DNA of 64,000 nucleotides, from IMG/VR virus record IMGVR_UViG_3300017992_000019, positions 30,892 through 94,891 of that record. One strand, 5' to 3'. Each line of letters starts with the position of its first letter. The first letter of the stretch is position 1. Positions 29,736 to 42,763 of the stretch are shown here, one piece after another. Under the pieces are notes generated by a model. The model made no database searches and had not been told where the DNA came from. It saw only the letters and a list, made by a program, of their open reading frames with translations. The DNA comes from a virus. The translations under genes were made by a program, and so were the position numbers.

Positions 29736-30116
29736 ATGTGGCCGTTCTCGCGTTTCAGAAAAAAGAAAGTGCAAGTCGAAACCAAAAAAGAGGGGGGAAA
29801 CGGGGAGGCAACCGACGTCGAGGTTGCACGCGAGAATCAAGTCACTCCTGTTGAGATTCTCCTCGCCGACTGCGAGGAGATCGAATCCCTTGACAGCGAG
29901 CCCGTAGTAGAGGACAACACCGGGGAGTTCCCCGAGGTCTACAACAAGCCGGGGATCGTCGTGAAAGAAAAAACGAGAGCTCAACGGCTACACAAACACG
30001 ATTCACAATCGCGGCGTGTCCTATGCGACATTGACAAACAGATCGAGCGGCTGAAAAAGATCCGGGAAAAGATCAAGGGAGGAACACTCAATGGGAAAGC
30101 AAAGGCGGAAACCTAA
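29736..30116 (+). CDS. Hypothetical protein
   Basis: 126 residues from an ATG with GGGGAGG eight bases upstream; a GTG at 29709 overlapping the preceding stop would add nine residues and cannot be excluded. The start (MWPFSRFRKKK) is basic, the middle acidic, and the end basic and helical (IDKQIERLKKIREKIKGG). The end overlaps the next gene by 26 bases. No family recognised. Confidence 0.5.
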   Translation: MWPFSRFRKKKVQVETKKEGGNGEATDVEVARENQVTPVEILLADCEEIESLDSEPVVEDNTGEFPEVYNKPGIVVKEKTRAQRLHKHDSQSRRVLCDIDKQIERLKKIREKIKGGTLNGKAKAET

Positions 30117-30417
30117 ATCGACGCCGACCTCGATCGAGATCCCACCGTGCGTCGGTTACTATGAGAAAGTCGAGATCGCTTGCGACGGCGACCCGGTCGG
30201 CGAAACCGAAATCGATCGGGTGCCGTGCTCGTGGCGAGACCATTGCCGCGCGTTCCGATCGCACCTTGAGCTCGCCGGACAATCGCCGGCGTCGCACATT
30301 GTCGAGGTGAGCAACGGCAACGGCCGACGGATTGGAAAACCAATCGCCGGCGAGGAGGCATTCCTCGAGTTGCTCGAGGAGAGTCTCCGCGGCTGGCAAG
30401 CAAGGGGGCAGGCATGA
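30091..30417 (+). CDS. Hypothetical protein
   Basis: 108 residues, ATG with GGGAGG upstream, overlapping both neighbours by a few bases. It begins basic (GKQRRKPKSTPTS) and contains two cysteines and a WRDHCRAFRSHLELAGQ stretch, but no recognisable fold. Codon use matches neighbours. Confidence 0.5.
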   Translation: MGKQRRKPKSTPTSIEIPPCVGYYEKVEIACDGDPVGETEIDRVPCSWRDHCRAFRSHLELAGQSPASHIVEVSNGNGRRIGKPIAGEEAFLELLEESLRGWQARGQA

Positions 30418-30794
30418 GCAAGACACGACGCGAACCCGAAGTGATCGACAACTCACCTCTCGTCGACGTCAAGATCGACGAGGTCGAATACAAGCTCACG
30501 CCGAAACGACTCCGGGATCTTGCCGGCGACATGCTCCTCGAGGAGCTCCTCCGGGTCGGCAATCTCCTCGGCGAGGCCGAGTCGCGACTCGTGCTCGTCG
30601 ACGCCGAGTATCGATCGTTCCGCGGCGTTGCAGTCAAGGCCGAGCTCGACAAGGATCCGAAACTGTCCGAGTGGAAAATCAAGGCGCGGATCGAAGCGAG
30701 CGCGGAGTTCCAGAAATTCAAGATCGGGATCGCGAAAGCGACGCGCGAGGTGCACGTGCTCCGCGAGACCCTCGCGACTCTCCGACTCCGGTGA
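30414..30794 (+). CDS. Hypothetical helical protein
   Basis: 126 residues, ATGA overlap with the previous gene. Mostly helical, with an acidic N-terminal strand region (VDVKIDEVEYKLTP) and a long helix (ESRLVLVDAEYRSFRG). The central pattern (E..R....AEYRS...VKAEL, then SEWKIKARIEAS.EF) loosely resembles the protein at 50379-50963. It ends the late block; the next 700 bases are non-coding. Confidence 0.5.
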   Translation: MSKTRREPEVIDNSPLVDVKIDEVEYKLTPKRLRDLAGDMLLEELLRVGNLLGEAESRLVLVDAEYRSFRGVAVKAELDKDPKLSEWKIKARIEASAEFQKFKIGIAKATREVHVLRETLATLRLR

Positions 30795-31484
30795 TCGTCC
30801 GGCCGACTTGATTGTCGGGATCGGGCGAGACCTCCGAATCGAAAAACCGAGCTCGAGCTCGCGACCGGATCGCGAGACCCGGAACACCGATCCCGTGGCG
30901 ACGGGATCGACCTCCCGGCCGGGAGGGATCCAGCCGGGCACCCGGCCGGACTCCCACCGGGCCCCGGGCCGATCCAGCCGGGCGCCGGCGACCTCGAGGC
31001 CGACCTCCCGGCCGGGCCGGACTCCCACCGGCACCCACCGGCACCCACCGGCACCCACCGAGATCCACCGGCCGGATCCCTGATCTCGGGTCGAGCTCGA
31101 GGCCGACGGATCTTTTTTCGGGTTTTTTCGGGCCCGGATCGCGGGTGCTCGTTGTGTGGTGCTCTGTGGCGCCTCACAGGACGGGCCGAGATCCGGGCGC
31201 AAACCCCGTGCCAGGCAGGGCCCCGGATCCCGGGAGACCGGGCGCGCCAGAATAGGCGCCTCGAGACGTCTCTCCGCGTCTCCTACGCTTGCCGGGCCGG
31301 ACACGACCCGACACCCCGGATCCCAGGCCGGAGGCCGCACAGGGCCCGCAATCGCCTCGCGCGAATTTCCCAAACAAAACGAGGCACTTACAAGAGGGTG
31401 AGCGAAAACTCGTTTTCGGTCAAGGGGTTGGCCGCTTGCAAGTATGCGTTCCGTAAGTGGAAAACGTACCGGCGAAAATAGTTG
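30795..31484. other. Non-coding GC-rich intergenic region between late and early blocks
   Basis: No open frame here has protein-like composition; those present read as Arg/Pro/Gly-rich low complexity on both strands. The first half contains reshuffled copies of short words (GACCTCCCGGCCGGG, ACTCCCACCGG, GATCCAGCCGGG). TTTTTT runs near 31113 and 31123 separated by CGGG may mark transcription ends. From about 31350 the composition turns less GC-rich. An inverted repeat CGAAAAC-TC-GTTTTCG lies at 31403-31418 and could be an operator. Confidence 0.6.
31021..31070. repeat. Five 10-bp tandem units (three perfect)
   Basis: GCACCCACCG occurs three times in a row at 31031-31060 and is flanked by one degenerate unit on each side sharing CCACCG. 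The period is one helical turn. It lies inside the non-coding region. Confidence 0.85.
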
Positions 31485-31513
31485 TTGCAATACGCGAAAC
31501 GGTGCCGTATACT
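31485..31513 (+). promoter_or_regulatory. Sigma70-type promoter
   Basis: TTGCAA (31485-31490), a 17-base spacer, then TATACT (31508-31513) make a strong match to the -35/-10 consensus. The predicted start is near 31520, exactly at an ATG, so a leaderless 65-codon frame to 31717 is formally possible but looks non-coding. An 8-bp stem hairpin (31548-31567) follows. Confidence 0.65.
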
Positions 31514-31547
31514 GTAAACATGAGGCCGGAGACCAAGACAAGCCCGA

Positions 31548-31567
31548 AACTGTGCAACGGCACAGTT
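31548..31567 (+). promoter_or_regulatory. Perfect 8-bp inverted repeat downstream of promoter
   Basis: AACTGTGC and GCACAGTT are separated by AACG. It begins about 28 bases after the predicted transcription start. No T-run follows, so it looks more like an operator or early RNA hairpin than a terminator. Confidence 0.5.
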
Positions 31568-31689
31568 CTTGCCCTGGATCCCCTACCTCGCAAAAATGTT
31601 CAAAAGCACACTATGAAAAATGTACTTTTTACACACCGTTTCTGCACCGCGTCACGGGCTAACTCGCTGAAACATAAGAGTTCAGGAGT

Positions 31690-31705
31690 TGGCACGCGGT
31701 TTGCA
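31690..31705 (+). promoter_or_regulatory. Sigma54-like (-24/-12) promoter site
   Basis: TGGCAC, five bases, then TTGCA is an exact match to the TGGCAC-N5-TTGCW consensus, with GG at 31691-31692 and GC at 31703-31704, twelve bases apart as required. The predicted start is near 31716. A weaker sigma70 reading (TTGGCA, 18 bases, ACTAAT) is an alternative. It lies 370 bases upstream of the amidoligase. Confidence 0.5.
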
Positions 31706-31715
31706 GTAACATACT

Positions 31716-32087
31716 AATAGTTGCTCATTGACAAAGGAACGGCGAAGCGAAGCAGGGACGGCCGGAAACAGTCCCACCGGGGCAACCCTCCCGGAGCTAG
31801 CAGGAAACACCGAGACCAACAAAAGCTAGTGTGACCCTACGGGGCACGGGTAGACGGGCGAAGCAAGGAGGAGCCGACAATGCCTCCGAGACCCGGGCGA
31901 CGAAACGGCCACATGACAAGCATGGGGCACGAGTAAAAAAGAGAGACGGCCGGCGAGAGTCGGCCACATGGGCGCGCACCGCGAGGCGGTCGCCGCGAGG
32001 TCGTACCTCGGCGCGCTCCTTTTGAGAGTTGAGAGATTGAAACCCTTTTGACCTTGTCGCGGACAAGGAAACCTTTTGGAGGATACC
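31716..32087 (+). ncRNA. Long foldable 5' leader of the amidoligase gene (candidate structured RNA)
   Basis: Several consecutive stems can be drawn: GGGAC/GTCCC (31755-31775), CCGGG/CCCGG (31777-31794), CTAGC/GCTAG (31797-31829), GGCCG/CGGCC near 31954, ACCGC/GCGGT and GAGGT/ACCTC near 31977-32006, and CCTTGTC-GCG-GACAAGG just before the ribosome-binding site. The only candidate peptide is the short frame at 31880. Whether this is a processed RNA, a riboswitch-like leader or only a stable leader cannot be told from sequence. Confidence 0.4.
31880..31936 (+). CDS. Possible 18-residue leader peptide
   Basis: ATG with AAGGAGG eight bases upstream opens an 18-codon frame (MPPRPGRRNGHMTSMGHE) ending in TAA. 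The ribosome-binding site is as good as that of real genes here. It lies in the amidoligase leader just before a GGCCG/CGGCC hairpin, which suits a leader peptide, but there is no regulatory codon run. Confidence 0.35.
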   Translation: MPPRPGRRNGHMTSMGHE

Positions 32088-33029
32088 ATGACCGCTAATA
32101 TCGAAACCCTGAAGTCTCAGACCTTCGGCGTCGAAATTGAATTCGTAGGTTGCACCCAGGAACGCGCCGCTCGCGCGGTGCACTCCGTTGTCGGCGGTCG
32201 GATCTTCGACCGCACCGTCGTTGCTCCCGACGGTCGCAAGTGGAAAGTCGTCTCCGACGGGTCGGTCGCCGGTGTCGGCGGCGAGCTCGTGACTCCGGTC
32301 CTCAAGTACGACGACATGGAAACCCTGCAAGAGGTCGTGCGGGCCATGCGTCGCGCCGGTTGCCGCAAGCACTCCTCGGCCGGTATTCACGTGCACGTCG
32401 GCGCTCGCGACATGACCGCCAAGCAGATCGTCAACGTGGTCAAGACTTGGAATCGGCAGGAACGGATCATTGTCAAGGCGCTCGACATTGAGGGTCGCAC
32501 CTACGGCACCAACGGTGCTCGCACTTGGGCCGCGTCTGCAAACCGCGACGTGATCCCCCGGATCCTCCGGTCCAAGCCTAAGACCATGAACAAGCTCGCG
32601 GCCGCTTGGTACGGCGAGAGCAACTATGAGTCGCGCACCTATCGCAAGTATGACTCGAGCCGGTATCACGCGATCAACCTGCACAACCTTTTTTATGGGT
32701 CGCACGGCACCATCGAATTTCGTTGCTTCAACTCGACCATGCACGCCGGCGAAATCCGCTCCTACGTCGTGCTCGCTCTCGCAGTCGTCGCCAAGGGTCG
32801 CAACGGCCGCGGCGCCTCGGTTGAGCAGCGCGCTTTCAATCCCGAAACCGCGAAATTCGATTTTCGCCAGTGGATGATCAAGCTCGGCATGATCGGCGCC
32901 GAGTTCAAGAATGTCCGCAAGCACCTTATGAAGCGCCTCCCGGGATCCTCCCGGTCGGCCAACACTGGCCGGACTCGCGGCGGTCACGCTCGCCGGAACA
33001 ACAACGTCGAGAATCACGCGAGCGTGTAA
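32088..33029 (+). CDS. Putative amidoligase (Amidoligase_2 family)
   Basis: 313 residues; ATG with TTGGAGG upstream. Family landmarks: FGVEIEF at residues 13-19 (metal/ATP-binding E-x-E), SDGSV followed by GGELVTPVL, GIHVHVGA at 99-106 and IEFRCFNST at 209-217. These belong to the glutamine-synthetase-like COOH-NH2 ligases, predicted to make peptide-like amide bonds on small molecules or proteins. Two cyclotransferase-like genes follow, a partnership noted in comparative work on amidoligases. Codon use is unlike its neighbours: all 19 Thr codons are ACC or ACT and none ACG, and Gln is mostly CAG. The basic, Asn/Gly/Arg-rich C-terminus may be flexible. Confidence 0.85.
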   Translation: MTANIETLKSQTFGVEIEFVGCTQERAARAVHSVVGGRIFDRTVVAPDGRKWKVVSDGSVAGVGGELVTPVLKYDDMETLQEVVRAMRRAGCRKHSSAGIHVHVGARDMTAKQIVNVVKTWNRQERIIVKALDIEGRTYGTNGARTWAASANRDVIPRILRSKPKTMNKLAAAWYGESNYESRTYRKYDSSRYHAINLHNLFYGSHGTIEFRCFNSTMHAGEIRSYVVLALAVVAKGRNGRGASVEQRAFNPETAKFDFRQWMIKLGMIGAEFKNVRKHLMKRLPGSSRSANTGRTRGGHARRNNNVENHASV

Positions 33030-33041
33030 GTCAACCTCAAC

Positions 33042-33114
33042 CCCGGGCGCTCCGGCGCCCGGGTGTCGAAACGCCGGCAACGCGCCGGCGTCTATCGGGG
33101 ATCGCCTCCCGATA
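33042..33114 (+). other. Three consecutive strong hairpins after the amidoligase gene
   Basis: CCCGGGCGC/GCGCCCGGG (33042-33063) has a 9-bp stem closed by a UNCG-type tetraloop (TCCG). ACGCCGGC/GCCGGCGT (33071-33091) has an 8-bp stem. TATCGGG/CCCGATA (33093-33114) has a 7-bp stem. No T-run follows. They may protect or terminate the highly expressed transcript. Confidence 0.6.
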
Positions 33115-33158
33115 CTGACGAGACAGGCGACGACAAGGAAACCGAAAAGGAGGAAACC

Positions 33159-33551
33159 ATGTCTTGCAAAGTGTTCGTGTATGGCACGCTCCTCGAGGGC
33201 GAGCCGAATCACAGGGTGCTCGGCGACTCCGAGCTCCTCGGCACCGCGACGACTCGGCCGGCTTTCCGGTTTGTCGATTGCGGATACTACCCGGCCGCAC
33301 TCACCGACGGCGAAACGGCGATCGTCGGCGAGGTCTACCGGGTCAACGACGAGACGCTCGAGGATCTCGATCGTCTCGAGGGTGTTCCTCGGTTGTACCA
33401 GCGCAAGCGGATCAAGCTCGCCGACGGATCGGTTGCTTGGATCTACTTGCTCAACCCCGAGGGTTACTACGGCCGGCGCGAAATGCCGGCGATCGAGTGC
33501 GGCGACTGGCGCGCGCACCTCGACGCGAAATACGGCGCGGCCGCGTCGTGA
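33159..33551 (+). CDS. Gamma-glutamylcyclotransferase-like protein 1
   Basis: 130 residues; ATG with AAGGAGG upstream. It starts CKVFVYGTLLEGEPNHRVL, the YGTL-type phosphate/ligand loop of the GGCT/AIG2 fold, and carries LDRLEGVPRLYQRKRI, the LDxxEGxP region that holds the catalytic glutamate in characterised members. The length fits the GGACT/YtfP-type subgroup. GGCTs release gamma-glutamyl or epsilon-glutamyl-lysine amides as cyclic 5-oxoproline. Beside an amidoligase, it may edit or remove the bond that enzyme makes. Confidence 0.85.
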   Translation: MSCKVFVYGTLLEGEPNHRVLGDSELLGTATTRPAFRFVDCGYYPAALTDGETAIVGEVYRVNDETLEDLDRLEGVPRLYQRKRIKLADGSVAWIYLLNPEGYYGRREMPAIECGDWRAHLDAKYGAAAS

Positions 33552-33561
33552 GGAGGAAACC

Positions 33562-33795
33562 ATGACACCCGAAATCACAGTCGAGCAGAGACGGAAGTAC
33601 AGAGAGATCGACACCCGGAATCTCCGGGCGATCTTCATTGCCAACCCGCGCGGCGAAATGCGGCGCATCTTTCCGAAAGCGGCACGACAGGGAATCGGCG
33701 CTCGGAGCGTGAGCGAGATCGTCGTGTGCTTGATCCACGTCGGCGAGCTCAAGGTCGACACCGACTCCGGCCGGTATGAGTGGATCGGAAACTGA
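33562..33795 (+). CDS. Hypothetical protein in amidoligase cluster
   Basis: 77 residues with GAGGAGGAAACC before the ATG. An N-terminal charged helix (VEQRRKYREIDTRNLRAIF) is followed by a basic middle and a short C-terminal strand pair (ELKVDTDSGRYEWIG). It could be a small nucleic-acid binder. No family recognised. Confidence 0.55.
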   Translation: MTPEITVEQRRKYREIDTRNLRAIFIANPRGEMRRIFPKAARQGIGARSVSEIVVCLIHVGELKVDTDSGRYEWIGN

Positions 33796-33898
33796 AAAGT
33801 GTTCGAGATAGGGGATCCCGGTATCCGGCCCGACAGGCATTGACTCCCAATGTCTCGCGTTTCCCCGACGCGACGGCCGGCGCCGGGATCCCCACTTT
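33796..33898 (+). other. Long-range hairpin after stop codon
   Basis: GGGGATCCCGG (33811-33821) is complementary over 11 bases to CCGGGATCCCC (33883-33893), and AAAGTG (33796-33801) to CACTTT (33893-33898). The enclosed 61 bases are not coding. It starts directly after the preceding stop codon and ends five bases before the first three-way-junction element. Confidence 0.55.
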
Positions 33899-33902
33899 AT
33901 CA

Positions 33903-33962
33903 TTTCCGAGGGAGGAATCGCAACCCTCCCCGACTTGTGTCCCGGCGATACGGGATCGGAAA
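33903..33962 (+). ncRNA. Three-way-junction RNA element, copy A
   Basis: P1 TTTCCGA (33903-33909) pairs TCGGAAA (33956-33962). P2 GGGAGG (33910-33915) pairs CCTCCC (33925-33930). The joining strand is CGACTTGTG (33931-33939). P3 TCCCG/CGGGA (33940-33955) has a GCGATA loop. P1-P2 and P3-P1 are flush. It lies 36 bases before the start of the 108-residue gene at 33999. Confidence 0.7.
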
Positions 33963-33998
33963 CCCAAACAGGCAAGGAAACCTTGCAAGGAGGAAACC

Positions 33999-34325
33999 AT
34001 GCACGACTTTGACATGAGAAAAAGACGGATCCGAATGACCCTCGAGGAGACGAGGAAAAAGATCGTCGAATTCGCAAACAAGAACGACGTCGGTTTCGAC
34101 TTTCACGAGCCCGACTGTCCCAACGGAGTCAAGGCCAAGGTCCGCGGGATCTGCTTTGACAACGCGCACGGCGATCACGGCGGCGAGTACACGACCCGCA
34201 CCGGCAAGCGGCGCGGTCCTTACGAAATGATCGTGATCCTCACCGACGACGACGGCAACAAGATCCGCGTCAACCTCGCGACGCTCTTTGCGCTCGCGAC
34301 AATGGATCACCGGAACAAGTTGTAG
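33999..34325 (+). CDS. Hypothetical protein preceded by RNA element A
   Basis: 108 residues; ATG with CAAGGAGGAAACC upstream. It has a basic helical N-terminus (MRKRRIRMTLEETRKKIVEF) and a central His/Cys-containing segment (HEPDCPNGVKAKVRGICFDNAHGDHGG), which might bind metal, then EMIVILTDDDGNKIRVNL strands. The frame is open upstream through the RNA element, but only this ATG has a ribosome-binding site. No family recognised. Confidence 0.6.
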   Translation: MHDFDMRKRRIRMTLEETRKKIVEFANKNDVGFDFHEPDCPNGVKAKVRGICFDNAHGDHGGEYTTRTGKRRGPYEMIVILTDDDGNKIRVNLATLFALATMDHRNKL

Positions 34326-34334
34326 GAGGGCGCC

Positions 34335-34664
34335 ATGAGTGCACAAGCAAAATGGAGGGAGCTCGCGGTGAGGTTGAGCTCGGCGTTCGTGACCGAGTAT
34401 CGGGTGAGCGGAAAACTCGACAGGCTCGTTTCGCGCACCGCGAATTTTATCCTCGAGGATCCCGAGAACAACGAGTCGGTCGCGGCCGGGCATATCAAGA
34501 TCGAGCTCGAGGAGGATTATCGCGACATGCTCGGGTATTACAAAGACACCCAAGACGAGATCAAGCGGTTGACGATCGAGCTCGGATTCGAGCTCGCGAT
34601 CGCGGCGTTTGTGGTCTCGGTCAAGAGCGCGGCCATGCGTCGCGTCAAGGAGTGCCGGCAATGA
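34335..34664 (+). CDS. Hypothetical helical protein
   Basis: 109 residues; TAGGAGG before ATG. Mostly helical with an acidic middle (KIELEEDYRDMLGYYKDTQDEIKRL) and a more hydrophobic C-terminal helix (ELAIAAFVVSVKSAAMRRV). It overlaps the second cyclotransferase gene by four bases, so the two are translationally coupled. Confidence 0.55.
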   Translation: MSAQAKWRELAVRLSSAFVTEYRVSGKLDRLVSRTANFILEDPENNESVAAGHIKIELEEDYRDMLGYYKDTQDEIKRLTIELGFELAIAAFVVSVKSAAMRRVKECRQ

Positions 34665-35185
34665 AACCGAAAACCATATTACGCAAGGGCCGGCGCGACT
34701 ACGGCCGGCCGAGTCTCAACGAAACACTCAAGCTCGGCGTGTTGGTCTTTGCCTACGGGAGCAACCTCGACGTCGATCAGATGTTTCGCCGTTGTCCCGA
34801 CTCGCTCGTCGTTGGTCCGGCGTTCCTCCCGGGATACTCGCTCGAGTTTGTCGGGCACTCCCGCGGGTGGGCCGGCGCCGTCGCGAATGTCTACAAGTCG
34901 AGCCGAGGGTGTAACGTGCCGGGCATGGTCTACCGGGTGACACCGGAGGATCTCGCGCACCTCGACGCTTGCGAGGGTGTGCCGTACACATACGAGCGGG
35001 TCAAGGTCCGGGTGAAAATGTTCGACGGCAAGCGGCGCACCGTGCACGTGTATCTCCGACAGGGAGATCCCGAGCTCGGGTATCCGTCGGTCCGATACTT
35101 CCGGGCGATCTATCGCGGTTACATGCTCTGGCAGTTTCACACAAACCACATTACCCGACTGTTTCGCGCGGCCGGGTATTCATAA
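34661..35185 (+). CDS. Gamma-glutamylcyclotransferase-like protein 2
   Basis: 174 residues, ATGA overlap with the preceding gene. After a basic 25-residue lead the fold starts with VLVFAYGSNLDVDQMFRRCP, the YGSN loop of the GGCT/ChaC group, and continues with GMVYRVTPEDLAHLDACEGVPYTYERV, whose EG motif holds the likely catalytic Glu. It differs strongly from the first copy, so it is not a recent duplicate. The C-terminal 50 residues (SVRYFRAIYRGYMLWQFHTNHITRL) are unique. Likely substrate: a gamma-glutamyl amide tied to the nearby amidoligase. Confidence 0.82.
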   Translation: MKPKTILRKGRRDYGRPSLNETLKLGVLVFAYGSNLDVDQMFRRCPDSLVVGPAFLPGYSLEFVGHSRGWAGAVANVYKSSRGCNVPGMVYRVTPEDLAHLDACEGVPYTYERVKVRVKMFDGKRRTVHVYLRQGDPELGYPSVRYFRAIYRGYMLWQFHTNHITRLFRAAGYS

Positions 35186-35198
35186 GAAAGGAGATTGA

Positions 35199-35257
35199 CC
35201 TCGCGGAGAGCTCGTCGCGGAGCTCTCCGACTTTTGCTCCGGCGTAGGAGCGCGAGG
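35199..35257 (+). ncRNA. Three-way-junction RNA element, copy B
   Basis: P1 CCTCGCG (35199-35205) pairs CGCGAGG (35251-35257). P2 GAGAGCT (35206-35212) pairs AGCTCTC (35221-35227). The joining strand is CGACTTTTG (35228-35236). P3 CTCC/GGAG (35237-35250) has a GGCGTA loop. All other joints are flush. It starts 13 bases after the cyclotransferase stop and ends 24 bases before the next ATG. Confidence 0.72.
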
Positions 35258-35281
35258 GAAACGAAAACCAAGGAGGGAATC

Positions 35282-35659
35282 ATGCCCGCACATTGTCAAA
35301 CGGAAATGTACGACGACCGCAACCCGCTCGCGAAGTGGCGGATCACTCACTCATGGATCGAGGAGGTCGGCGTCGTGGGAGACGAGAGAAAGAAAACCCC
35401 GATCGACGTCGTCGGCCCGAGGACTTGTCCTCCCGACGAGGACGATCACAAATTCAAGTGGACCGAGTTTCGGATCTACGACGACGACGGCGAGCTCTAC
35501 TATGAGGGGATCATGAACGAGCATTGCGAGGGGCTCGACCCGCTCGACGACTTCGGCACGCCGAATGCCGGCGCGACCGAGTTGCGGATCAAGGTCAAGG
35601 ATCAGGAGTGCCCGACGTGCAAGGGCACCGGCAAATGCGACCGTTGGGAAACGGTCTGA
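35282..35659 (+). CDS. Small protein with DnaJ-like CxxCxGxG zinc motif
   Basis: 125 residues; ATG with AAGGAGG upstream. The end, CPTCKGTGKCDRWE, carries a CxxCxGxGxC motif as in DnaJ-type zinc centres, but only one copy is present. The body is acidic with beta-type stretches (FRIYDDDGELYYEGIM). A TTG start at 35195 would translate the RNA element and is not accepted. Confidence 0.6.
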   Translation: MPAHCQTEMYDDRNPLAKWRITHSWIEEVGVVGDERKKTPIDVVGPRTCPPDEDDHKFKWTEFRIYDDDGELYYEGIMNEHCEGLDPLDDFGTPNAGATELRIKVKDQECPTCKGTGKCDRWETV

Positions 35660-35672
35660 AAGGAGATCGGTC

Positions 35673-36257
35673 ATGGTACGGTTACCGATACGGGTTCCGA
35701 CGGCCGAGGAGAGGTACAACGAAAAGCTCGAGTTGATCGCACGCTTCGCGCACGTGCCGGAGTCGGTCGTGCGCGCCTTGCATCGATCCTACATGAGAGT
35801 CGGCCGGATGAAATGCTACACCGACGGCGGGCCGGTCACGCGCAAGCATCGACGGGCCGGTCACGACAGCATGAGAAAGCGCGCGCTCGACGAGCTCCGG
35901 CGCACGATGCTCGAGATCCTCGGCGGTCCTTTCGCCGGGTCAAGCGCGTTGTGGTATCGCGGTCTCCGCGAGCAAGCTCACGCCGATCGCGCGTGGTCGT
36001 TGCTCAATGACCTCGTCGAGGCATACGACGCGCGGCGCGAGCACGACGGTTTGTGTTCCCCGGAGACGATCGCGAAAGTGATCCACGATCACATGAGCAA
36101 GGATCAGCGGCGCGGGTATTTCCGCGAGCAATTTTTCGGCGACAACGCTTTCGAGGAGATCCTCGGAAAGGTCAAGCTCCCGGACTTCTCGCACTTGCAC
36201 CTCGCCGAGATCCTCGACGCTCTCGAGAGTCTCTTGTATCCCAACGCGGCCGAGTGA
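35673..36257 (+). CDS. Hypothetical helical protein
   Basis: 194 residues; ATG with AAAGGAG upstream. Helical and charged throughout, with basic patches (VTRKHRRAGHDSMRKRALDELRR) that could contact nucleic acid. The C-terminal third is acidic. No motif recognised. It precedes RNA element C. Confidence 0.6.
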   Translation: MVRLPIRVPTAEERYNEKLELIARFAHVPESVVRALHRSYMRVGRMKCYTDGGPVTRKHRRAGHDSMRKRALDELRRTMLEILGGPFAGSSALWYRGLREQAHADRAWSLLNDLVEAYDARREHDGLCSPETIAKVIHDHMSKDQRRGYFREQFFGDNAFEEILGKVKLPDFSHLHLAEILDALESLLYPNAAE

Positions 36258-36273
36258 TATCACCGGCCGGCAA

Positions 36274-36336
36274 GGTCTCGCGAGGCGCGCGTCGCGGCGC
36301 GCCTCGACTTGTGCTCCGGCGTAGGAGCGCGAGACC
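36274..36336 (+). ncRNA. Three-way-junction RNA element, copy C
   Basis: P1 GGTCTCGCG (36274-36282) pairs CGCGAGACC (36328-36336). P2 AGGCGCGC (36283-36290) pairs GCGCGCCT (36297-36304). The joining strand is CGACTTGTG (36305-36313). P3 CTCC/GGAG (36314-36327) has a GGCGTA loop. An adjoining hairpin GTCTCGCGG/CCGCGAGAC (36337-36364) repeats the P1 sequences, so P1 has two possible partners. The helicase ATG is 64 bases downstream. Confidence 0.75.
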
Positions 36337-36400
36337 GTCTCGCGGGTCTCCCCGGCCGCGAGACGTGCCAACCACGGGGAGGCGACTAAAGGAGGGACTC

Positions 36401-38323
36401 ATGCCACGAACAGATCCATACGAGGGACTCAACGACGCACAACGCGAGGTCGTTGCTTTCAACGAGGGCAAGATCGTCGTGTGTAGCGTTGCGGGGTCGG
36501 GCAAGACGTTGACGGTGATCCGTCGCATGTCGAGGCTCGAGCTCGACGGGCAGGATCCAAAGCGGATCGTTGCAACGACTTTCACAACCAAAGCGGCCGG
36601 CGAAATGAACGACAGGCTCGCGGCCGAGGGTTGCCCGGTACGCGGCCGGGGATCCGACGAGGGCGCCCGGGTCGGCACCTTTCACTCGGTGTCGCTTGAG
36701 GTGATCCGGGACGGTGCACCCGAGGCAAACTACAAGGTCGACGGCAAGAATCGCATGAAACTCGAGCTCAAGAAAATCCTCGGGCACACTCAAATGGATT
36801 GGAAAGGCGTCGACCTCACCGAGGTCGAATCCTGGATCGCTCACAACAAGCATGAGCTTGTGCGGCCGGAGGAGTCGAGACACCCGGAGGATCGCAGATT
36901 CGACGAGGCATACGCGCGGCATGAGGAGACCCGGGACTCTCTCGGGTTGATCACTTTCGACGACATGCCAATGCTCGCGGTTGAGTATTTGCGTTCCGAT
37001 CGCGACGCTCGCGACCGGTGGTCGACTGCTTACGATCACGTGATCGTCGACGAGGCCCAGGACGCTAACAAGGCGCAATGGGCGCTCGCCGAGATCCTCG
37101 GCGAAAACGCAAAGTCGATCATGCTCGTCGGTGACGACGATCAGTCGATCTATGAGTGGCGCGGCGCCGTGCCGGCATACCTGATCGAGTATGCGAAGCG
37201 CGCGACCGTGGTCAAGCTCGAGATCAACTACCGGTGCCGGCCGGAAATCGTCGACGCCGGCAACAAGGTGATCAAGCACAACACCGACAGGATCAAGAAA
37301 TCGGCGACGGCCGCGCGGCCGGATGCCGCGACCGTGAAATACCGACGAGTATACAACCTCGACGCCGAGGCCGAGCTCGCGCTCGAGCAGATCCGCGAGA
37401 TCGTTGCCGACGGTGTCAAGTATGGTGAGATCGCGATCCTGTATAGGACCAACGCGCAAAGCCGGGCTTTCGAGGAGGTCTTTTTGCGCGAGTCGATCCC
37501 GCACGTCGTGATCGGCGGGACCGATTTTTACGACCGCAAGGAGGTCAAGGATCTCCTCAACTACCTCAAGCTCGCAAGCAAGCTCACCGACAACAAGGCG
37601 TTTCGGGATTGCGTCAACCGGCCTTTCCGTTTCATTGGAAAGCAGACGATCGAGAAAATGCAAAGCGAGGCCGAGTCGCGCGGGATCTCAATGTGGAAAG
37701 TGTGCCGCATGGTTGCCGAGGGCGAGATCAGATTGCCGCGGGTCAATGCGTCACAACTTCGCAACCTCCGAGAGTTTCGCCGGACGGTCAAAAAAGCTCG
37801 CTCGATCCTCAAGGAGGAGAGCTCGAGGATCTCCGATGTGTTCCTCTCGGTGCTCCGCGAATCGAAATACCTGGAATGGCTCAAGCGCGACGAGGGATCC
37901 GACACGTCGGAGAATTCCCGCGAGAGCAACGTGCGAGAGTTGATCCGCACCTCGGATCGTTTCGAGACCGTCAAGGAGTTCCTCGAGTATCTCGACAACC
38001 TCGCGGCCGAAAAGCGCAAGCGGAAAAACGGAGAGACCGGAAACCTGATCCAGCTTATGACCGTGCACAAGTCAAAGGGTCTCGAGTTTCCCGTCGTGTT
38101 CGTATCGGGCGCGACCGAGTTGATCCTCCCGCACGCTCGCACGGCCAACCCGGAGGAGGAGCGCCGGTTGTATTACGTCGCGATCACCCGGGCCCGGGAT
38201 CAACTGTATGTCACCTCGCCGGCGTGTCTACTCGTCGGCGGCAAGGTGACCGAGCTCGACCCGTCGCGCTTTGTCAACGAGTCGGAGGTCAACCGCTACG
38301 CGGCCGAGGAGGCGACAGCATGA
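36401..38323 (+). CDS. UvrD/Rep-family (SF1A) DNA helicase
   Basis: 640 residues; ATG after AAAGGAGGGACTC. All SF1 motifs are visible: SVAGSGKT (Walker A, residue 28), TFTTKAAGEM (Ia), VDEAQD (II, about 217), VGDDDQSIYEWRG (III), NYRCRPEIV (around 280), LYRTNAQSR (IV), VHKSKGLEFPVVF (V, about 555) and YYVAITRARDQLY (VI). It unwinds DNA 3' to 5' during repair, recombination or fork progress. Length is typical for a compact UvrD. Confidence 0.93.
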   Translation: MPRTDPYEGLNDAQREVVAFNEGKIVVCSVAGSGKTLTVIRRMSRLELDGQDPKRIVATTFTTKAAGEMNDRLAAEGCPVRGRGSDEGARVGTFHSVSLEVIRDGAPEANYKVDGKNRMKLELKKILGHTQMDWKGVDLTEVESWIAHNKHELVRPEESRHPEDRRFDEAYARHEETRDSLGLITFDDMPMLAVEYLRSDRDARDRWSTAYDHVIVDEAQDANKAQWALAEILGENAKSIMLVGDDDQSIYEWRGAVPAYLIEYAKRATVVKLEINYRCRPEIVDAGNKVIKHNTDRIKKSATAARPDAATVKYRRVYNLDAEAELALEQIREIVADGVKYGEIAILYRTNAQSRAFEEVFLRESIPHVVIGGTDFYDRKEVKDLLNYLKLASKLTDNKAFRDCVNRPFRFIGKQTIEKMQSEAESRGISMWKVCRMVAEGEIRLPRVNASQLRNLREFRRTVKKARSILKEESSRISDVFLSVLRESKYLEWLKRDEGSDTSENSRESNVRELIRTSDRFETVKEFLEYLDNLAAEKRKRKNGETGNLIQLMTVHKSKGLEFPVVFVSGATELILPHARTANPEEERRLYYVAITRARDQLYVTSPACLLVGGKVTELDPSRFVNESEVNRYAAEEATA

Positions 38324-38730
38324 AAAAGGACAAGGAGAAAAAGGTGATCGTGATCGACAACACCGGCGAGGGCAAGGGCGGCAAGCGGCGCCGGCCGGGC
38401 AAGCGGCGCCGGCAGAAATCCGCACCGCGGCCGAGCATCGTGCCGGAGGATGGGCCCGAGTTGCACCCGCGGACTCGCAACAAGATCCTCCGGCAACTTG
38501 CGGCCGAAGCGCGCAAGGTCGGCGGATCGTGCGTCGCGTTGCGGTGCTCGCTCGACCACGTCGGCGACGTGCTTGTGCTGGCGCCTCTCCTCGAGGCGAT
38601 CGTGCGTCTCAAGGAGATCGAAAAAGACGCGGTCAAGCTCGGATACAAGCCGGACAGATTCGCGCCCGCAACCCGGGGCGCGTTTCTCTCCGGTCTGATC
38701 GAGACCCTACGGATCAAAGGGAGGAGGTGA
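38320..38730 (+). CDS. Hypothetical basic protein
   Basis: 136 residues, ATGA overlap with the helicase. The first 45 residues are Lys/Arg/Gly-rich (KRRRPGKRRRQKSAPRP), likely nucleic-acid binding and unstructured; the rest is helical (NKILRQLAAEARKVGG, VLVLAPLLEAIVRLKEIEK). Translational coupling suggests a helicase-related role, but I see no known domain. Confidence 0.55.
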   Translation: MKKDKEKKVIVIDNTGEGKGGKRRRPGKRRRQKSAPRPSIVPEDGPELHPRTRNKILRQLAAEARKVGGSCVALRCSLDHVGDVLVLAPLLEAIVRLKEIEKDAVKLGYKPDRFAPATRGAFLSGLIETLRIKGRR

Positions 38731-38732
38731 TC

Positions 38733-38903
38733 GTGCACGCGAGGATCAAAGCGGTGATCGGAGACGGCGAGCGACAAGCGGTTCGTTTTGAGTGCCCGCA
38801 TTGCAAGCAAGAGACCACGGTCGAGGTTCCGGTCGGGACCGACAACTACCACGGCCGGGCGGTCGTGTGCTCCTATTGCAAGCGGACTCTCTCGCTCGAT
38901 TGA
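38733..38903 (+). CDS. Short zinc-ribbon protein
   Basis: 56 residues from GTG with GGGAGGAGG upstream; a GTG at 38727 would add two residues and overlap the previous stop. It carries CPHC near residue 21 and CSYC near residue 46, one complete zinc ribbon with beta strands between. It ends 13 bases before RNA element D. Confidence 0.6.
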   Translation: MHARIKAVIGDGERQAVRFECPHCKQETTVEVPVGTDNYHGRAVVCSYCKRTLSLD

Positions 38904-38916
38904 ATCGAAAGGAGGT

Positions 38917-38969
38917 GCACCGAGGGAGGGTGAAATCCCCTCCCCGACTTTTGCCCGAAAGGGCGGTGC
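38917..38969 (+). ncRNA. Three-way-junction RNA element, copy D
   Basis: P1 GCACCG (38917-38922) pairs CGGTGC (38964-38969). P2 GGGAGGG (38924-38930) pairs CCCTCCC (38938-38944). The joining strand is CGACTTTTG (38945-38953). P3 CCC/GGG (38954-38963) is capped by a GAAA tetraloop. Only A38923 is unpaired between P1 and P2. It lies 23 bases before the ATG of the Toprim protein. Confidence 0.72.
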
Positions 38970-38992
38970 CGGAAACCCGAAAGGAGGATGCT

Positions 38993-39913
38993 ATGCCTTG
39001 CATTTGCTATGTCGAAAAGAATTTCTCGGCGGGCTCGCGCGAAGTGATCGCGCAAGCAAACGAGATCGTCGAGGCGTACCAAGCACAGGATCTTGTGCTC
39101 ACCTTGCGTCAACTGTATTACCGGTTTGTCGCGAGCGATCTGATTCCCAACACCGACCGGTCGTACAAGAGACTCGGGTCGATAATCAACGACGCGAGAC
39201 TCGCCGGCGAGATCGATTGGAACGCGATCGAGGATCGCGGTCGCAACCTGATCCGGCGCTCGCATTGGAGCACACCGGGCGGGATCATTTCCTCGGCCGC
39301 GGCGTCGTATGCGATCGACAAGTGGAAAGGTCAAGACAACTACGTCGAGGTTTGGGTCGAGAAACAGGCGCTCGAGGCAATCATCGATCAGGCGTGCGAG
39401 CCTCTCGACGTCAACTGTATCGCGTGCAAGGGATACATGAGTCAATCCGAAATGTGGCGCGCGTCGATCCGTTACAGGGAAATGATCCAGGCCGACCGGA
39501 CGCCGGTGATCATTCACCTCGGCGACCACGACCCGAGCGGTCTGGACATGACCCGCGACATACAAGATCGTCTCGAGATTTTCGGCGTGCAAATGGAGGT
39601 CAACAGGATCGCGCTCAACATGGATCAAGTCGAGGAGTTTGATCCTCCTCCGAATCCCGCGAAGCTCTCCGACAGTCGCGCGGCCGGATATATCACCGAA
39701 TTCGGATCGGAGTCGTGGGAGCTCGACGCGCTCGAGCCGGCCGTGCTCCGGGATCTGATCCGCAAGACGATCCGGTCGTACCTCAACAAGAAAAAGTTCA
39801 AGGCGCGCGAGCAACGCGAGGAATCGGAACGCAACGCGCTCGAGGAGGTTTCGGATCGGTGGAACGAGGTTGTCGAATTTCTCGAGATCGAGAGCACCGA
39901 CGAGGAGGATTGA
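38993..39913 (+). CDS. Spo11/Topo VI-A-like protein (winged helix plus Toprim; Topo mini-A type)
   Basis: 306 residues; ATG with GAAAGGAGG upstream. Residues about 28-90 form a winged-helix segment with RQLYYRFVASDLIP, matching the region of the catalytic tyrosine in Spo11/Topo VI A (5Y-CAP domain). Residues about 115-200 form a Toprim domain: VEKQAL supplies the Glu and GDHDPSGLDM the DxD acids. No B subunit (GHKL ATPase) is encoded nearby. B-less A-subunit homologues from viruses have been described as Topo mini-A. The acidic tail (ESTDEED) is unusual. Likely acts on DNA ends or topology during replication; cleavage activity is inference. Confidence 0.65.
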   Translation: MPCICYVEKNFSAGSREVIAQANEIVEAYQAQDLVLTLRQLYYRFVASDLIPNTDRSYKRLGSIINDARLAGEIDWNAIEDRGRNLIRRSHWSTPGGIISSAAASYAIDKWKGQDNYVEVWVEKQALEAIIDQACEPLDVNCIACKGYMSQSEMWRASIRYREMIQADRTPVIIHLGDHDPSGLDMTRDIQDRLEIFGVQMEVNRIALNMDQVEEFDPPPNPAKLSDSRAAGYITEFGSESWELDALEPAVLRDLIRKTIRSYLNKKKFKAREQREESERNALEEVSDRWNEVVEFLEIESTDEED

Positions 39914-39917
39914 TCCA

Positions 39918-40169
39918 ATGGGCGACGGGATTTGCAATTTTTGCTTGATCCGAAATATCCGGGCGCGCGCAAAAACCAAAGGTCTCGAGGTGACCGTGCT
40001 CCCGTCTCCCGACGACGAGGAGGCGGGACTCAAGCCACCCGGGAACGATGTTTTCATGCACCCCCCGGGGATCTCGGTCAAGCTCCTCGAGGAGGATCGA
40101 CCCGACGACGGGCCCGGCGACTTTTGGGTTTGTTGGGTCTGGACGATCCCCAAGAAATGCGAATGTTGA
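39918..40169 (+). CDS. Small Cys-containing protein
   Basis: 83 residues from ATG four bases after the previous stop. CNFC near residue 6 and a terminal CEC are potential metal ligands. The middle is acidic and Pro-rich (DDEEAGLKPPGND). It ends at the terminator that closes this transcription unit. No family recognised. Confidence 0.5.
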   Translation: MGDGICNFCLIRNIRARAKTKGLEVTVLPSPDDEEAGLKPPGNDVFMHPPGISVKLLEEDRPDDGPGDFWVCWVWTIPKKCEC

Positions 40170-40173
40170 TCTT

Positions 40174-40249
40174 GACGCCGGCGTCGGAGGCCCGACCGGG
40201 ATCCCTCCCCGCGGCCGGGTTACGCGCCCGGCGCCGGCGTCTTTTTTTT
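40174..40249 (+). terminator. Rho-independent terminator with branched stem
   Basis: GACGCCGGCG (40174-40183) pairs perfectly with CGCCGGCGTC (40232-40241) and is followed by eight T. Inner stems GGAGG/CCTCC-type and CCGGG/CCCGG can form inside. This is the clearest terminator in the window. Confidence 0.8.
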
Positions 40250-40269
40250 GGAGGGGAAAGGAGTTTCTC

Positions 40270-40512
40270 ATGTCAGTCAAAACCTACACACTCGATCCCG
40301 ATCTCAAGGGAATCGGCGGCGACCATGCCGGCAAGTTGCTCGCGAGAGCATACGACAACGGCGGCGAGCTCGAGCTCCTCAAGACCGCGGGCGACATGTT
40401 TGTCGACATGCTTCCGAGCAAGGAGGAGCTCGTCGCGATCGCGACAGGCAAGGCGATCCTTGTCGGTCACGGTCTCGAGCTCATGTATGCAGTCAACCGC
40501 GAAAGGAGTTGA
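40270..40512 (+). CDS. Hypothetical protein
   Basis: 80 residues; AAAGGAG then ATG. Helical with alanine/leucine-rich segments (HAGKLLARAYDNGGELELLKTAGDMFVDML). First gene after the terminator. No family recognised. Confidence 0.55.
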   Translation: MSVKTYTLDPDLKGIGGDHAGKLLARAYDNGGELELLKTAGDMFVDMLPSKEELVAIATGKAILVGHGLELMYAVNRERS

Positions 40513-40514
40513 TC

Positions 40515-40979
40515 ATGCCTCCCCGCTTTATCCAGTACACGGCCGACGAGGTCAAGGCGAAGCTCGAGCCGGCCGGGTTCAAGGTCGTGAGACTGCACCG
40601 GTGCGGCGAGCTTGTGCTCGAGCGCGAGATCGATGATCACCCGGACGTCAAGATCCGGGTATACTCCTCGATCGCGATCCACAACGGCGACGCACGCGAA
40701 GTCGGCACCGACGCCGGCCGGGTGCTCCTGATCGATCGCAAGACCGACAAGCCGGTTTGGAAATCGAAGCGTGCACACCGCACGCAAAACTTTCTCGACG
40801 CGCTCCTCGCAAGGTGCCGCGTCGCATACAAGGCCGTCTCTACTCTCCCGCGGTGTCCCGTCTGCAAGGGATACATGGTCGAGCGATCCAAGCGCGGCGA
40901 GCGCAAGCCGTCGTTTCTCGGTTGCTTGAAATTTCCGGCGTGCCGTGGTACGCGAAACATTCCCCGGGGCCGGAGGTGA
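40515..40979 (+). CDS. Protein with topoisomerase-type C-terminal zinc finger
   Basis: 154 residues; AAAGGAG upstream. The last 45 residues, starting CPVCKGYMVERSKRGER and continuing FLGCLKFPACRGTRN, match the C4 zinc finger found at the C-terminus of bacterial topoisomerase I. The first 110 residues are an alpha/beta domain without topoisomerase motifs. It may act with a partner such as the Topo mini-A-like protein two genes upstream, or be a DNA-binding nuclease-like factor. Confidence 0.65.
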   Translation: MPPRFIQYTADEVKAKLEPAGFKVVRLHRCGELVLEREIDDHPDVKIRVYSSIAIHNGDAREVGTDAGRVLLIDRKTDKPVWKSKRAHRTQNFLDALLARCRVAYKAVSTLPRCPVCKGYMVERSKRGERKPSFLGCLKFPACRGTRNIPRGRR

Positions 40980-40982
40980 CCA

Positions 40983-41198
40983 ATGGGTCGGATCATGAAA
41001 TGCCGACATTGCGACGCCGAGCTTGTATGCAAGGCGTGCGGCGAAAAGCAAACCCAACGCAAGAAAACCGAGACCAAGAAACTCACCGTGCACGTCGATC
41101 CGGCGCGCGACGAGGAGCTCACGGCCGAGGCCGAAAAACTCGGGATCAGTAAGTCGGAGCTTGTGCGGCGTCGACTTGCGGCCGGAGGCGAGGAGTGA
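40983..41198 (+). CDS. Zinc-ribbon protein with ribbon-helix-helix-like tail
   Basis: 71 residues. CRHC and CKAC near residues 7-19 form a zinc knuckle pair; the C-terminal KKLTVHVDPARDEEL followed by LGISKSELVRRRL looks like a ribbon-helix-helix DNA-binding unit. A small transcription regulator is the natural guess. It overlaps the SF2 helicase by four bases. Confidence 0.6.
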   Translation: MGRIMKCRHCDAELVCKACGEKQTQRKKTETKKLTVHVDPARDEELTAEAEKLGISKSELVRRRLAAGGEE

Positions 41199-42763
41199 TC
41201 CCGGTTCGCACGCGCCTCGACACTCACCTTGTGCTCGACATTGACGATCTCGGTCCGCGCGCAACGAATGCACTCCGCGAGGAATTCACGCGGAGCAATC
41301 CGGCGTTTTTCAAAAAGCGACGAATGGGTCACTGGATCGGCGACACGCCGAGCAAGCTCAAGTCGTGGGCCCTCGAGGGTCGTTGGTTGATTCTCCCTCG
41401 AGGGTCTCTCGACCGGGTCGAGGAGACGCTCTCGAGCCTCGAGAGGCGCCTCGACCCGATACGCGACCGGATGCACTCATGCGAGCCGGCCGGGCTTTCC
41501 CTGCGAGCCGGGCGGGCCATGAGGCCATACCAGATCCCCGCGGTGCGGCACCTCGTTGACAACGGCCGGCCGGGCGCGATCGTCCGGGGCGGTTGCGGAT
41601 CGGGCAAGACCGTCGTGCTCCTCGGAGCGATCGCCGAGATCAATCAACCGGCGATCGTTGTCGTGCACTCGATCCCTCTCCTCAACCAATGGCGCAAAGC
41701 CGTCTCTCACTGGCTCGGTGTTATCCCGGGAGAGATCCGCTCGGGCAAGTTCAAGCTCGGGACGATCACGATCGCGACGCAAGCGAGTTTGTGGTCGCAG
41801 TACAAGAAAGGCAAGCTCGACTGGTTTGACCGATACGGCGTTCTTGTCGGCGACGAGATCCACCGATGGGCCGCGAAAACCTTTCAAGCGGTCGCGTCCG
41901 TTTTCCCGGCCGCGTATCGGATCGGTGCCTCGGCCGACGAGCGACGCAAGGATCAAATGGAGCACCTGATCTATGAGACGTTCGGATCCGAGGTCTACAA
42001 GATCAAGCGCGACGAGTGTCTCGCGGCCGGGTCTCTCCTCCCGGTGAAATTCGAGGTCGTGCCGACCGGATACTCCGACCTTGTGTATCTGTCGTCGGTC
42101 CGCACCGCTCACATTTGCGAGACGTGCAACGCCGAGCTCCGGGCCCCGGACATGCGAGCGAAAGCGAAACCCGGCCGGCTGAAATACTGCCCGGTATGTG
42201 ATCGCAACGTCGAGCCCGAGGTTCCTGATTGGGGCGGGATGATCAATCGCATGGTCGACGACGAGGAACGCAACGACTTGATCGAGGAACACGTGCACCG
42301 GGTGATCCAGGATCCCAAGACGCGGATCTTGATTCTCAACGAGCGGGTCGAGGCGTGCCGTAGTTGGGCCGCGCGTCTCGAGCTCCGCGGTGTGCCGGCC
42401 GGGCTCATGATCGGCGGGCCCGAGAATCGCAAGGAGCTCGACCGCACTATCTCCGGGATCCGCTCCGGCACGATCCGGGTTGCCGTCGGCACGTCCGTCG
42501 CCGACGAGGGTCTCGATCTCCCCGCGCTCTCGCACGTGTTTTGTTCCTGCCCGGTGCACACCCACAAGAAACGACTCAAGCAAATGATCGGACGCGCGGC
42601 CCGGCCGCATGAGGACAAGCAACACGCGACGTGCGTTTATTTTTGGGATCAAAATCTTTTCCCTCCTCAGTATGACGGCCACAACCCGGAGGCGTATCAG
42701 AAAGCAAAGGAGTCGTTTCTCCGATCGCTCAAGCGATCCGGCGACTCGCTCGTTGTGTTGTAG
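41195..42763 (+). CDS. SF2 DNA/RNA helicase (UvsW / DEAD-like)
   Basis: 522 residues from ATG/GTGA overlap. Motifs: LRAGRAMRPYQIPAV (Q-like), GGCGSGKT (Walker A, residue 132), GDEIH (Walker B, about 222), GASADERRKD (III, here A-S-A rather than T-A-T), LILNERVEACRSW, VAVGTSVADEGLDLP (V) and QMIGRAARP (VI). An insertion near residues 308-334 has CETC and CPVC, a zinc ribbon. UvsW-type helicases remodel forks and R-loops. Confidence 0.88.
   Translation: MIPVRTRLDTHLVLDIDDLGPRATNALREEFTRSNPAFFKKRRMGHWIGDTPSKLKSWALEGRWLILPRGSLDRVEETLSSLERRLDPIRDRMHSCEPAGLSLRAGRAMRPYQIPAVRHLVDNGRPGAIVRGGCGSGKTVVLLGAIAEINQPAIVVVHSIPLLNQWRKAVSHWLGVIPGEIRSGKFKLGTITIATQASLWSQYKKGKLDWFDRYGVLVGDEIHRWAAKTFQAVASVFPAAYRIGASADERRKDQMEHLIYETFGSEVYKIKRDECLAAGSLLPVKFEVVPTGYSDLVYLSSVRTAHICETCNAELRAPDMRAKAKPGRLKYCPVCDRNVEPEVPDWGGMINRMVDDEERNDLIEEHVHRVIQDPKTRILILNERVEACRSWAARLELRGVPAGLMIGGPENRKELDRTISGIRSGTIRVAVGTSVADEGLDLPALSHVFCSCPVHTHKKRLKQMIGRAARPHEDKQHATCVYFWDQNLFPPQYDGHNPEAYQKAKESFLRSLKRSGDSLVVL

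Follow-up and report, generated by a model that had tools for sequence, protein, structure and literature searches.

Why does one phage operon carry the same small junction RNA in several of its inter-gene gaps, and what might these RNAs do there? The window analyzed here, a stretch of 64,000 nucleotides, comprises bases 30892-94891 of a 94,891-bp IMG/VR virus record (IMGVR_UViG_3300017992_000019). The virus is a tailed phage with genes for a contractile-tail sheath, tape measure, baseplate, DNA polymerase, DnaB-like helicase and primase, and no isolated phage matched region 30000-42000 at the DNA level. Within this region, an operon of twelve genes on the plus strand (32088-39913) extends from an amidoligase gene to a topoisomerase-annotated gene; every frame was checked and is intact. 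Four copies of a repeated three-way-junction element, termed A to D, were confirmed at the positions given in an earlier note made from the sequence alone (Table 1). The genes that follow them are probably early genes, judging from gene content.

All four copies (53-63 nt) share a common layout, which consists of P1, an optional A, the P2 hairpin, the linker CGACTT(G/T)TG, the P3 hairpin, an optional T and the 3ʹ strand of P1 (P1ʹ). The joint between P3 and P1ʹ measures 0-1 nt in four of four copies. The nine-base joining strand is constant, as had been claimed, and an alternative register is also possible in which its first C pairs with its last G, leaving a 7-nt core, GACUUKU. In copy A, the P2 and P3 loops are complementary over 5 bp (AUCGC/GCGAU; random expectation 0.9%). 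Such loop-loop pairing amounts to 3 bp in B and C (about 19% by chance) and is missing in D, and it is convincing in A only. Copies B, C and D begin 13, 16 and 13 nt past a stop codon, within the 13-16 bases reported before, and A begins 107 nt past one. The distances from element to next ATG (A, 36 nt; B, 24 nt; C, 64 nt; D, 23 nt) likewise agree with the earlier range of 23-64. A strong ribosome-binding site stands directly ahead of each downstream ATG.

Table 1. Positions of the junction RNAs, the adjoining structured block and selected operon genes in the window.
Feature	Position	Strand	Description
Putative amidoligase gene	32088..33029	+	Pfam PF12224, E 4.5e-50; upstream of hammerhead gap
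Type II hammerhead ribozyme	33064..33132	+	First operon gap; Rfam RF02276, 48.5 bits (cutoff 37), E 6.6e-7
Gamma-glutamyl cyclotransferase-like gene	33159..33551	+	Pfam PF06094, E 4e-27; first gene past hammerhead
Strongly structured block adjoining copy A upstream	33796..33902	+	107 nt; folding z -5.66
Copy A	33903..33962	+	P1 TTTCCG/CGGAAA; J12 A; P2 GGGAGG/CCTCCC, loop AATCGCAAC; linker CGACTTGTG; P3 TCCCG/CGGGA, loop GCGATA; J31 T
Gene downstream of copy A	33999..34325	+	Open frame; no Pfam or PHROG match
Copy B	35199..35257	+	P1 CCTCGCG/CGCGAGG; P2 GAGAGCTC/GAGCTCTC, loop GTCGCG; linker CGACTTTTG; P3 CTCC/GGAG, loop GGCGTA; folding z -3.4
Gene downstream of copy B	35282..35659	+	phrog_12268, unknown function
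Copy C	36274..36336	+	P1 GGTCTCGCG/CGCGAGACC; P2 AGGCGCGC/GCGCGCCT, loop GTCGCG; linker CGACTTGTG; P3 CTCC/GGAG, loop GGCGTA; folding z -4.1
UvrD-like helicase gene downstream of copy C	36401..38323	+	Pfam PF13361/PF00580
Copy D	38917..38969	+	P1 GCACCG/CGGTGC; J12 A; P2 GGGAGGG/CCCTCCC; linker CGACTTTTG; P3 CCC/GGG, loop GAAA; folding z -3.3
Topoisomerase-annotated gene downstream of copy D	38993..39913	+	phrog_6247

The surroundings of the copies hold further features. In the block upstream of copy A, which had no match in Rfam, a long stem (GGGGATCCCGG/CCGGGATCCCC) closes two hairpins. Copies B and D are each immediately preceded on the plus strand (35186-35198 and 38904-38916) by a Shine-Dalgarno-like GAAAGGAG(G), in addition to the ribosome-binding site downstream, and in D CGAAAGGAGG is found on both sides of the element. 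The pattern resembles insertion of the element behind a ribosome-binding site that was already there. An extra strong hairpin (GTCTCGCGG...CCGCGAGAC) occupies 36337-36365 on the plus strand, directly 3ʹ of copy C.

The stems of A-D are strikingly regular. All 69 counted stem pairs are Watson-Crick and none is G-U. At ten of the 15 aligned pair positions both partners vary, giving two or three kinds of pair (C-G, G-C, T-A and A-T among them), and no position is unpaired in any copy; two junction-proximal P1 pairs (C-G and G-C) are invariant. Mixing of 5ʹ and 3ʹ strands between copies frequently fails, with standard pairs at 45 of 72 positions in P1, 56 of 80 in P2 and 35 of 42 in P3. P1 had been described as four different helices, all paired. 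The pairing stands, whereas the number of independent versions is reduced to three because B and C share the inner P1 pairs. These two copies also have P3 and both loops in common, and as close relatives they bring the effective sample to about three independent sequences.

Chance was assessed in several ways. When the core was held fixed and the flanks were dinucleotide-shuffled, 2000 times per copy, no shuffle reached the observed score for any copy, and 200 shuffles of the whole window gave no match scoring ≥25. Outside this virus, 246 occurrences of CGACTTKTG, most of them in DNA obtained with patterns that fix part of P3 as well, score at most 22.7 versus 29.9-41.2 for A-D. A covariance model built from A, B and C recovers D (30.6 bits, E 5.9e-5; next match 16.5), and a model built from B, C and D recovers A (40.7 bits, E 2.2e-6; next match 18.3). 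A descriptor scan independently recovers all four copies, which rank 1, 2, 4 and 7 on the plus strand in a Watson-Crick-only scan of the window for generic three-way junctions. Because junctions that tolerate G-U pairs are frequent by chance in this GC-rich genome, the window included, the evidence lies in the combination of core, perfect pairing and covariation. That frequency is what would favor chance hairpins in GC-rich DNA as the source of A-D, an origin disfavored by the shuffles, the recovery of held-out copies and the two-sided pair changes. Coding conservation of in-frame N-terminal extensions could be considered since the frame of every downstream gene stays open across its element; however, the core of copy A lies in a different reading frame from that of B-D, and each ATG has its own ribosome-binding site right before it. 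Chance and coding together are very improbable explanations. A-D are a real, so far unnamed covarying RNA element, and the proposal of RNA-level conservation with compensated stems is borne out by the shuffles, the leave-one-out models and the positions that change on both sides. Compensated changes and held-out recovery place the copies among covarying structured RNA families, on about three independent sequences.

The element matched no family at Rfam 15 gathering scores, in agreement with the view that its joining strand belongs to no known family. Its sole other carrier found, contig IMGVR_UViG_3300017990_000015, is 99.99% identical and thus represents the same virus. Exact-pattern scans of IMG/VR, which combined the core with different P3 loops (CGACTTKTG fixed, P3 partly specified), yielded, apart from this contig, nothing but chance matches in which the junction was incomplete. 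Nothing convincing appeared among the matches listed in a genome-contig scan, a covariance-model search of about 800 bacterial genomes, which scored only 14 candidates per genome and so carries little information, gave no match, and blastn of copy B against phage records returned chance-level matches only. A weak model match and other occurrences of the core in this virus were rejected as coding or lacking a junction. The earlier note had named missing homologues in related phages as a refutation, and relatives found through the topoisomerase-like protein, the helicase and the amidoligase indeed do not carry the element; the refutation is weak because these relatives share only 38-53% protein identity. 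The element is known from one virus, and its distribution appears narrow in these pattern-limited searches. A selfish mobile RNA, one of the functions proposed at the outset, gains little, since there is no further copy in the 95-kb contig and none was found elsewhere.

The strongest clue to the role of A-D is a hammerhead ribozyme in the same operon, which is absent from the earlier note. The inter-gene gaps of the operon are, in order, 129, 10, 203, 9, -4, 96, 13, 143, -4, 2 and 89 nt. Five exceed 20 nt, the remainder all being ≤13 nt, and all five hold a junction RNA: the 129-nt gap, between the amidoligase and gamma-glutamyl cyclotransferase-like genes, contains the hammerhead, and the other four contain A, B, C and D. 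The hammerhead is composed of stem II (TGTC/GACA), GAAA(C), hairpin III, GTC, hairpin I and CTGACGA (33115-33121), with cleavage predicted after 33092. Its loop I (TCGCC) pairs over 5 bp with the 3ʹ tail (GGCGA, 33126-33130), and such a pseudoknot is a hallmark of type II hammerheads (PMC3088659). The Rfam score, the CUGANGA, GAAA and GUC core and this pseudoknot identify the RNA as type II.

A-D themselves are not hammerheads, as they have neither CUGANGA nor the GAA(A) strand that links stems II and III. The sole CTGANGA in the listed operon gaps is at 33115, inside the hammerhead; Rfam hammerhead models run over 32900-39100 (gathering threshold or E ≤5) found nothing besides 33064-33132, and Rfam on the gaps of C and A (E ≤10) gave no hammerhead match. 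Permuted hammerheads, including non-circular permutations (PMC10085705), were rejected because the catalytic block CUGANGA is missing, and no known ribozyme core is present in A-D. That A-D work like a hammerhead is plausible.

Other parts of the operon were noted in passing. Two different gamma-glutamyl cyclotransferase-like genes (33159-33551 and 34661-35185) share the operon with the amidoligase gene, and several gut phages likewise have an amidoligase gene with a cyclotransferase gene nearby; neither a ribozyme nor an A-D-type element was found near those genes. The leader string AAGGAAACC recurs at 32065-32073, 33135-33143 and 33974-33982, ahead of the ribosome-binding sites of three operon genes. 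In the leader of the amidoligase gene, 31972-32016 on the plus strand forms a further three-way junction, perfectly paired and flush, whose linker is CGCCG and which is followed by TCCTTTT; it could be an attenuator or a relative of A-D that has diverged.

A-D are most likely an intercistronic processing element, with catalysis putative. Of the functions listed earlier, a processing site is strengthened most, since the one comparable gap left in the operon holds a type II hammerhead: one of five long gaps contains a hammerhead and the other four contain A-D. Moreover, ribozymes are enriched near other ribozymes, a rule that yielded pistol, hatchet and twister-sister (PMC10085705), so the four slots without a hammerhead would be expected to hold an element with the same job. 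A-D would then be paralogues of a single cis-acting RNA, present in four copies where translationally coupled gene blocks adjoin, and would set a processing site of the polycistronic mRNA or the place where a new 5ʹ end forms, with self-cleavage as the likeliest candidate means. The structure, its covariation, the constant linker and the slot-by-slot arrangement are observed, as is the hammerhead in an equivalent slot; we infer transcription through all slots, cutting of the RNA at them and cutting by the element itself. In the proposed fold, P1 would close the junction and P2 and P3 would lie side by side, joined in A by a loop-loop helix; the constant 7-9-nt strand, (C)GACUUKU(G), would serve as active core, as CUGANGA does between hammerhead stems I and II. 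This account as a whole is favored only tentatively.

Several precedents are consistent with intercistronic processing. In prophages, tandem hammerheads flank single genes or short blocks and cleave both in vitro and in E. coli, and cutting of long transcripts into gene-sized mRNAs has been proposed (PMC3088659). In haloviruses HF1/HF2, a variant of the hammerhead is found 13 nt ahead of an early helicase gene (PMC3088659), and copy C also precedes a helicase gene. In size (53-63 nt), multi-stem junction and invariant strand, A-D fit expectations for self-cleaving RNAs (PMC10085705), and the loop pairing of copy A resembles the loop I/tail pairing of the neighboring hammerhead. Against cleavage, ten candidate motifs picked by similar reasoning stayed uncut in vitro (PMC10085705), and with two of the linkers only 0-1 nt long, little unpaired sequence is left to build an active site. 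It is rather doubtful that A-D constitute a new class of self-cleaving ribozyme, built on a flush three-way junction with GACUUKU as its only core strand, that is interchangeable with the hammerhead and cuts one phage mRNA into gene-block units.

The main rival to self-cleavage is a non-catalytic role, in which A-D would either be recognized by a protein of phage or host origin (acting as translational repressor or as linker-cutting RNase) or form stable 5ʹ-end structures that shield the mRNA downstream. A constant single strand between variable perfect helices is typical of protein sites, and A-D lie 23-64 nt ahead of strong ribosome-binding sites. Cluster K mycobacteriophages provide a parallel in their repeated start-associated sequences, half of which have upstream inverted repeats and whose function is unknown (PMC3203893). 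However, the hammerhead in an equivalent slot favors cutting by RNA over binding, and no candidate binding protein was identified. This alternative is a serious one, if itself short of probable.

A riboswitch-like sensor that governs translation or termination of the downstream genes is improbable. Its 5ʹ-UTR-like position, junction architecture and invariant core would suit such a role, which drew no positive evidence: no element is followed by an intrinsic terminator (the one candidate flagged, P2 and linker of copy B, has a weak T tract), and conserved alternative pairing with the ribosome-binding site was not seen. Furthermore, the downstream genes are unrelated (two unknowns, a helicase and a topoisomerase-like protein), and no Rfam riboswitch matched at its threshold.

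The structure might alternatively act as DNA, in a cruciform, a recombination site such as integron attC, or a replication or packaging site. The lack of G-U pairs and the roughly equal folding stability of the two strands would suit this idea, but the stems of the neighboring hammerhead also lack G-U pairs, so their absence is not diagnostic. The copies keep one orientation relative to genes and are confined to inter-gene gaps of one operon, and integron attC was rejected because the core sites GTTRRRY/RYYYAAC are missing within 30 nt of every copy. A DNA-level role is accordingly quite unlikely.

Intercistronic processing can also be set beside known systems. Type II and III hammerheads of phage and prophage operons (RF02276 and relatives; PMC3088659) resemble A-D as inter-gene three-way junctions, several per operon, with a 7-nt invariant strand between two hairpins and a loop-loop contact shared by copy A. 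Unlike hammerheads, A-D lack CUGANGA, the GAA strand and a UH cleavage triplet, and their other linkers are 0-1 nt. Pistol, hatchet and twister-sister (PMC10085705) are similar in size and were found by the same guilt-by-association logic; however, families found in this way have many homologues and demonstrated cleavage, and their Rfam models match none of A-D. The start-associated and extended start-associated sequences of cluster K mycobacteriophages (PMC3203893) are, like A-D, repeated upstream of unrelated gene starts, sometimes with inverted repeats. In these it is the sequence that is conserved, and a 13-bp core lies at the start of translation, whereas in A-D the structure and a single linker are conserved and the elements precede the ribosome-binding site. 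Theta (HDV-like) ribozymes of gut phages (PMC10879173) are likewise small phage RNAs for which transcript processing has been proposed, but they have an HDV-like fold and adjoin tRNA genes, whereas A-D have no Rfam match and no tRNA gene was found in the window.

If A-D cleave, two unrelated ribozyme folds would occupy equivalent slots of one operon. This would provide a direct test of whether cutting itself, and no specific fold, is what the slot requires, and it would add a new class of small ribozyme. If A-D do not cleave, the four paralogues, with the hammerhead as a natural internal control, would still offer a compact model for the question of why junction RNAs occur between the gene blocks of phage operons.
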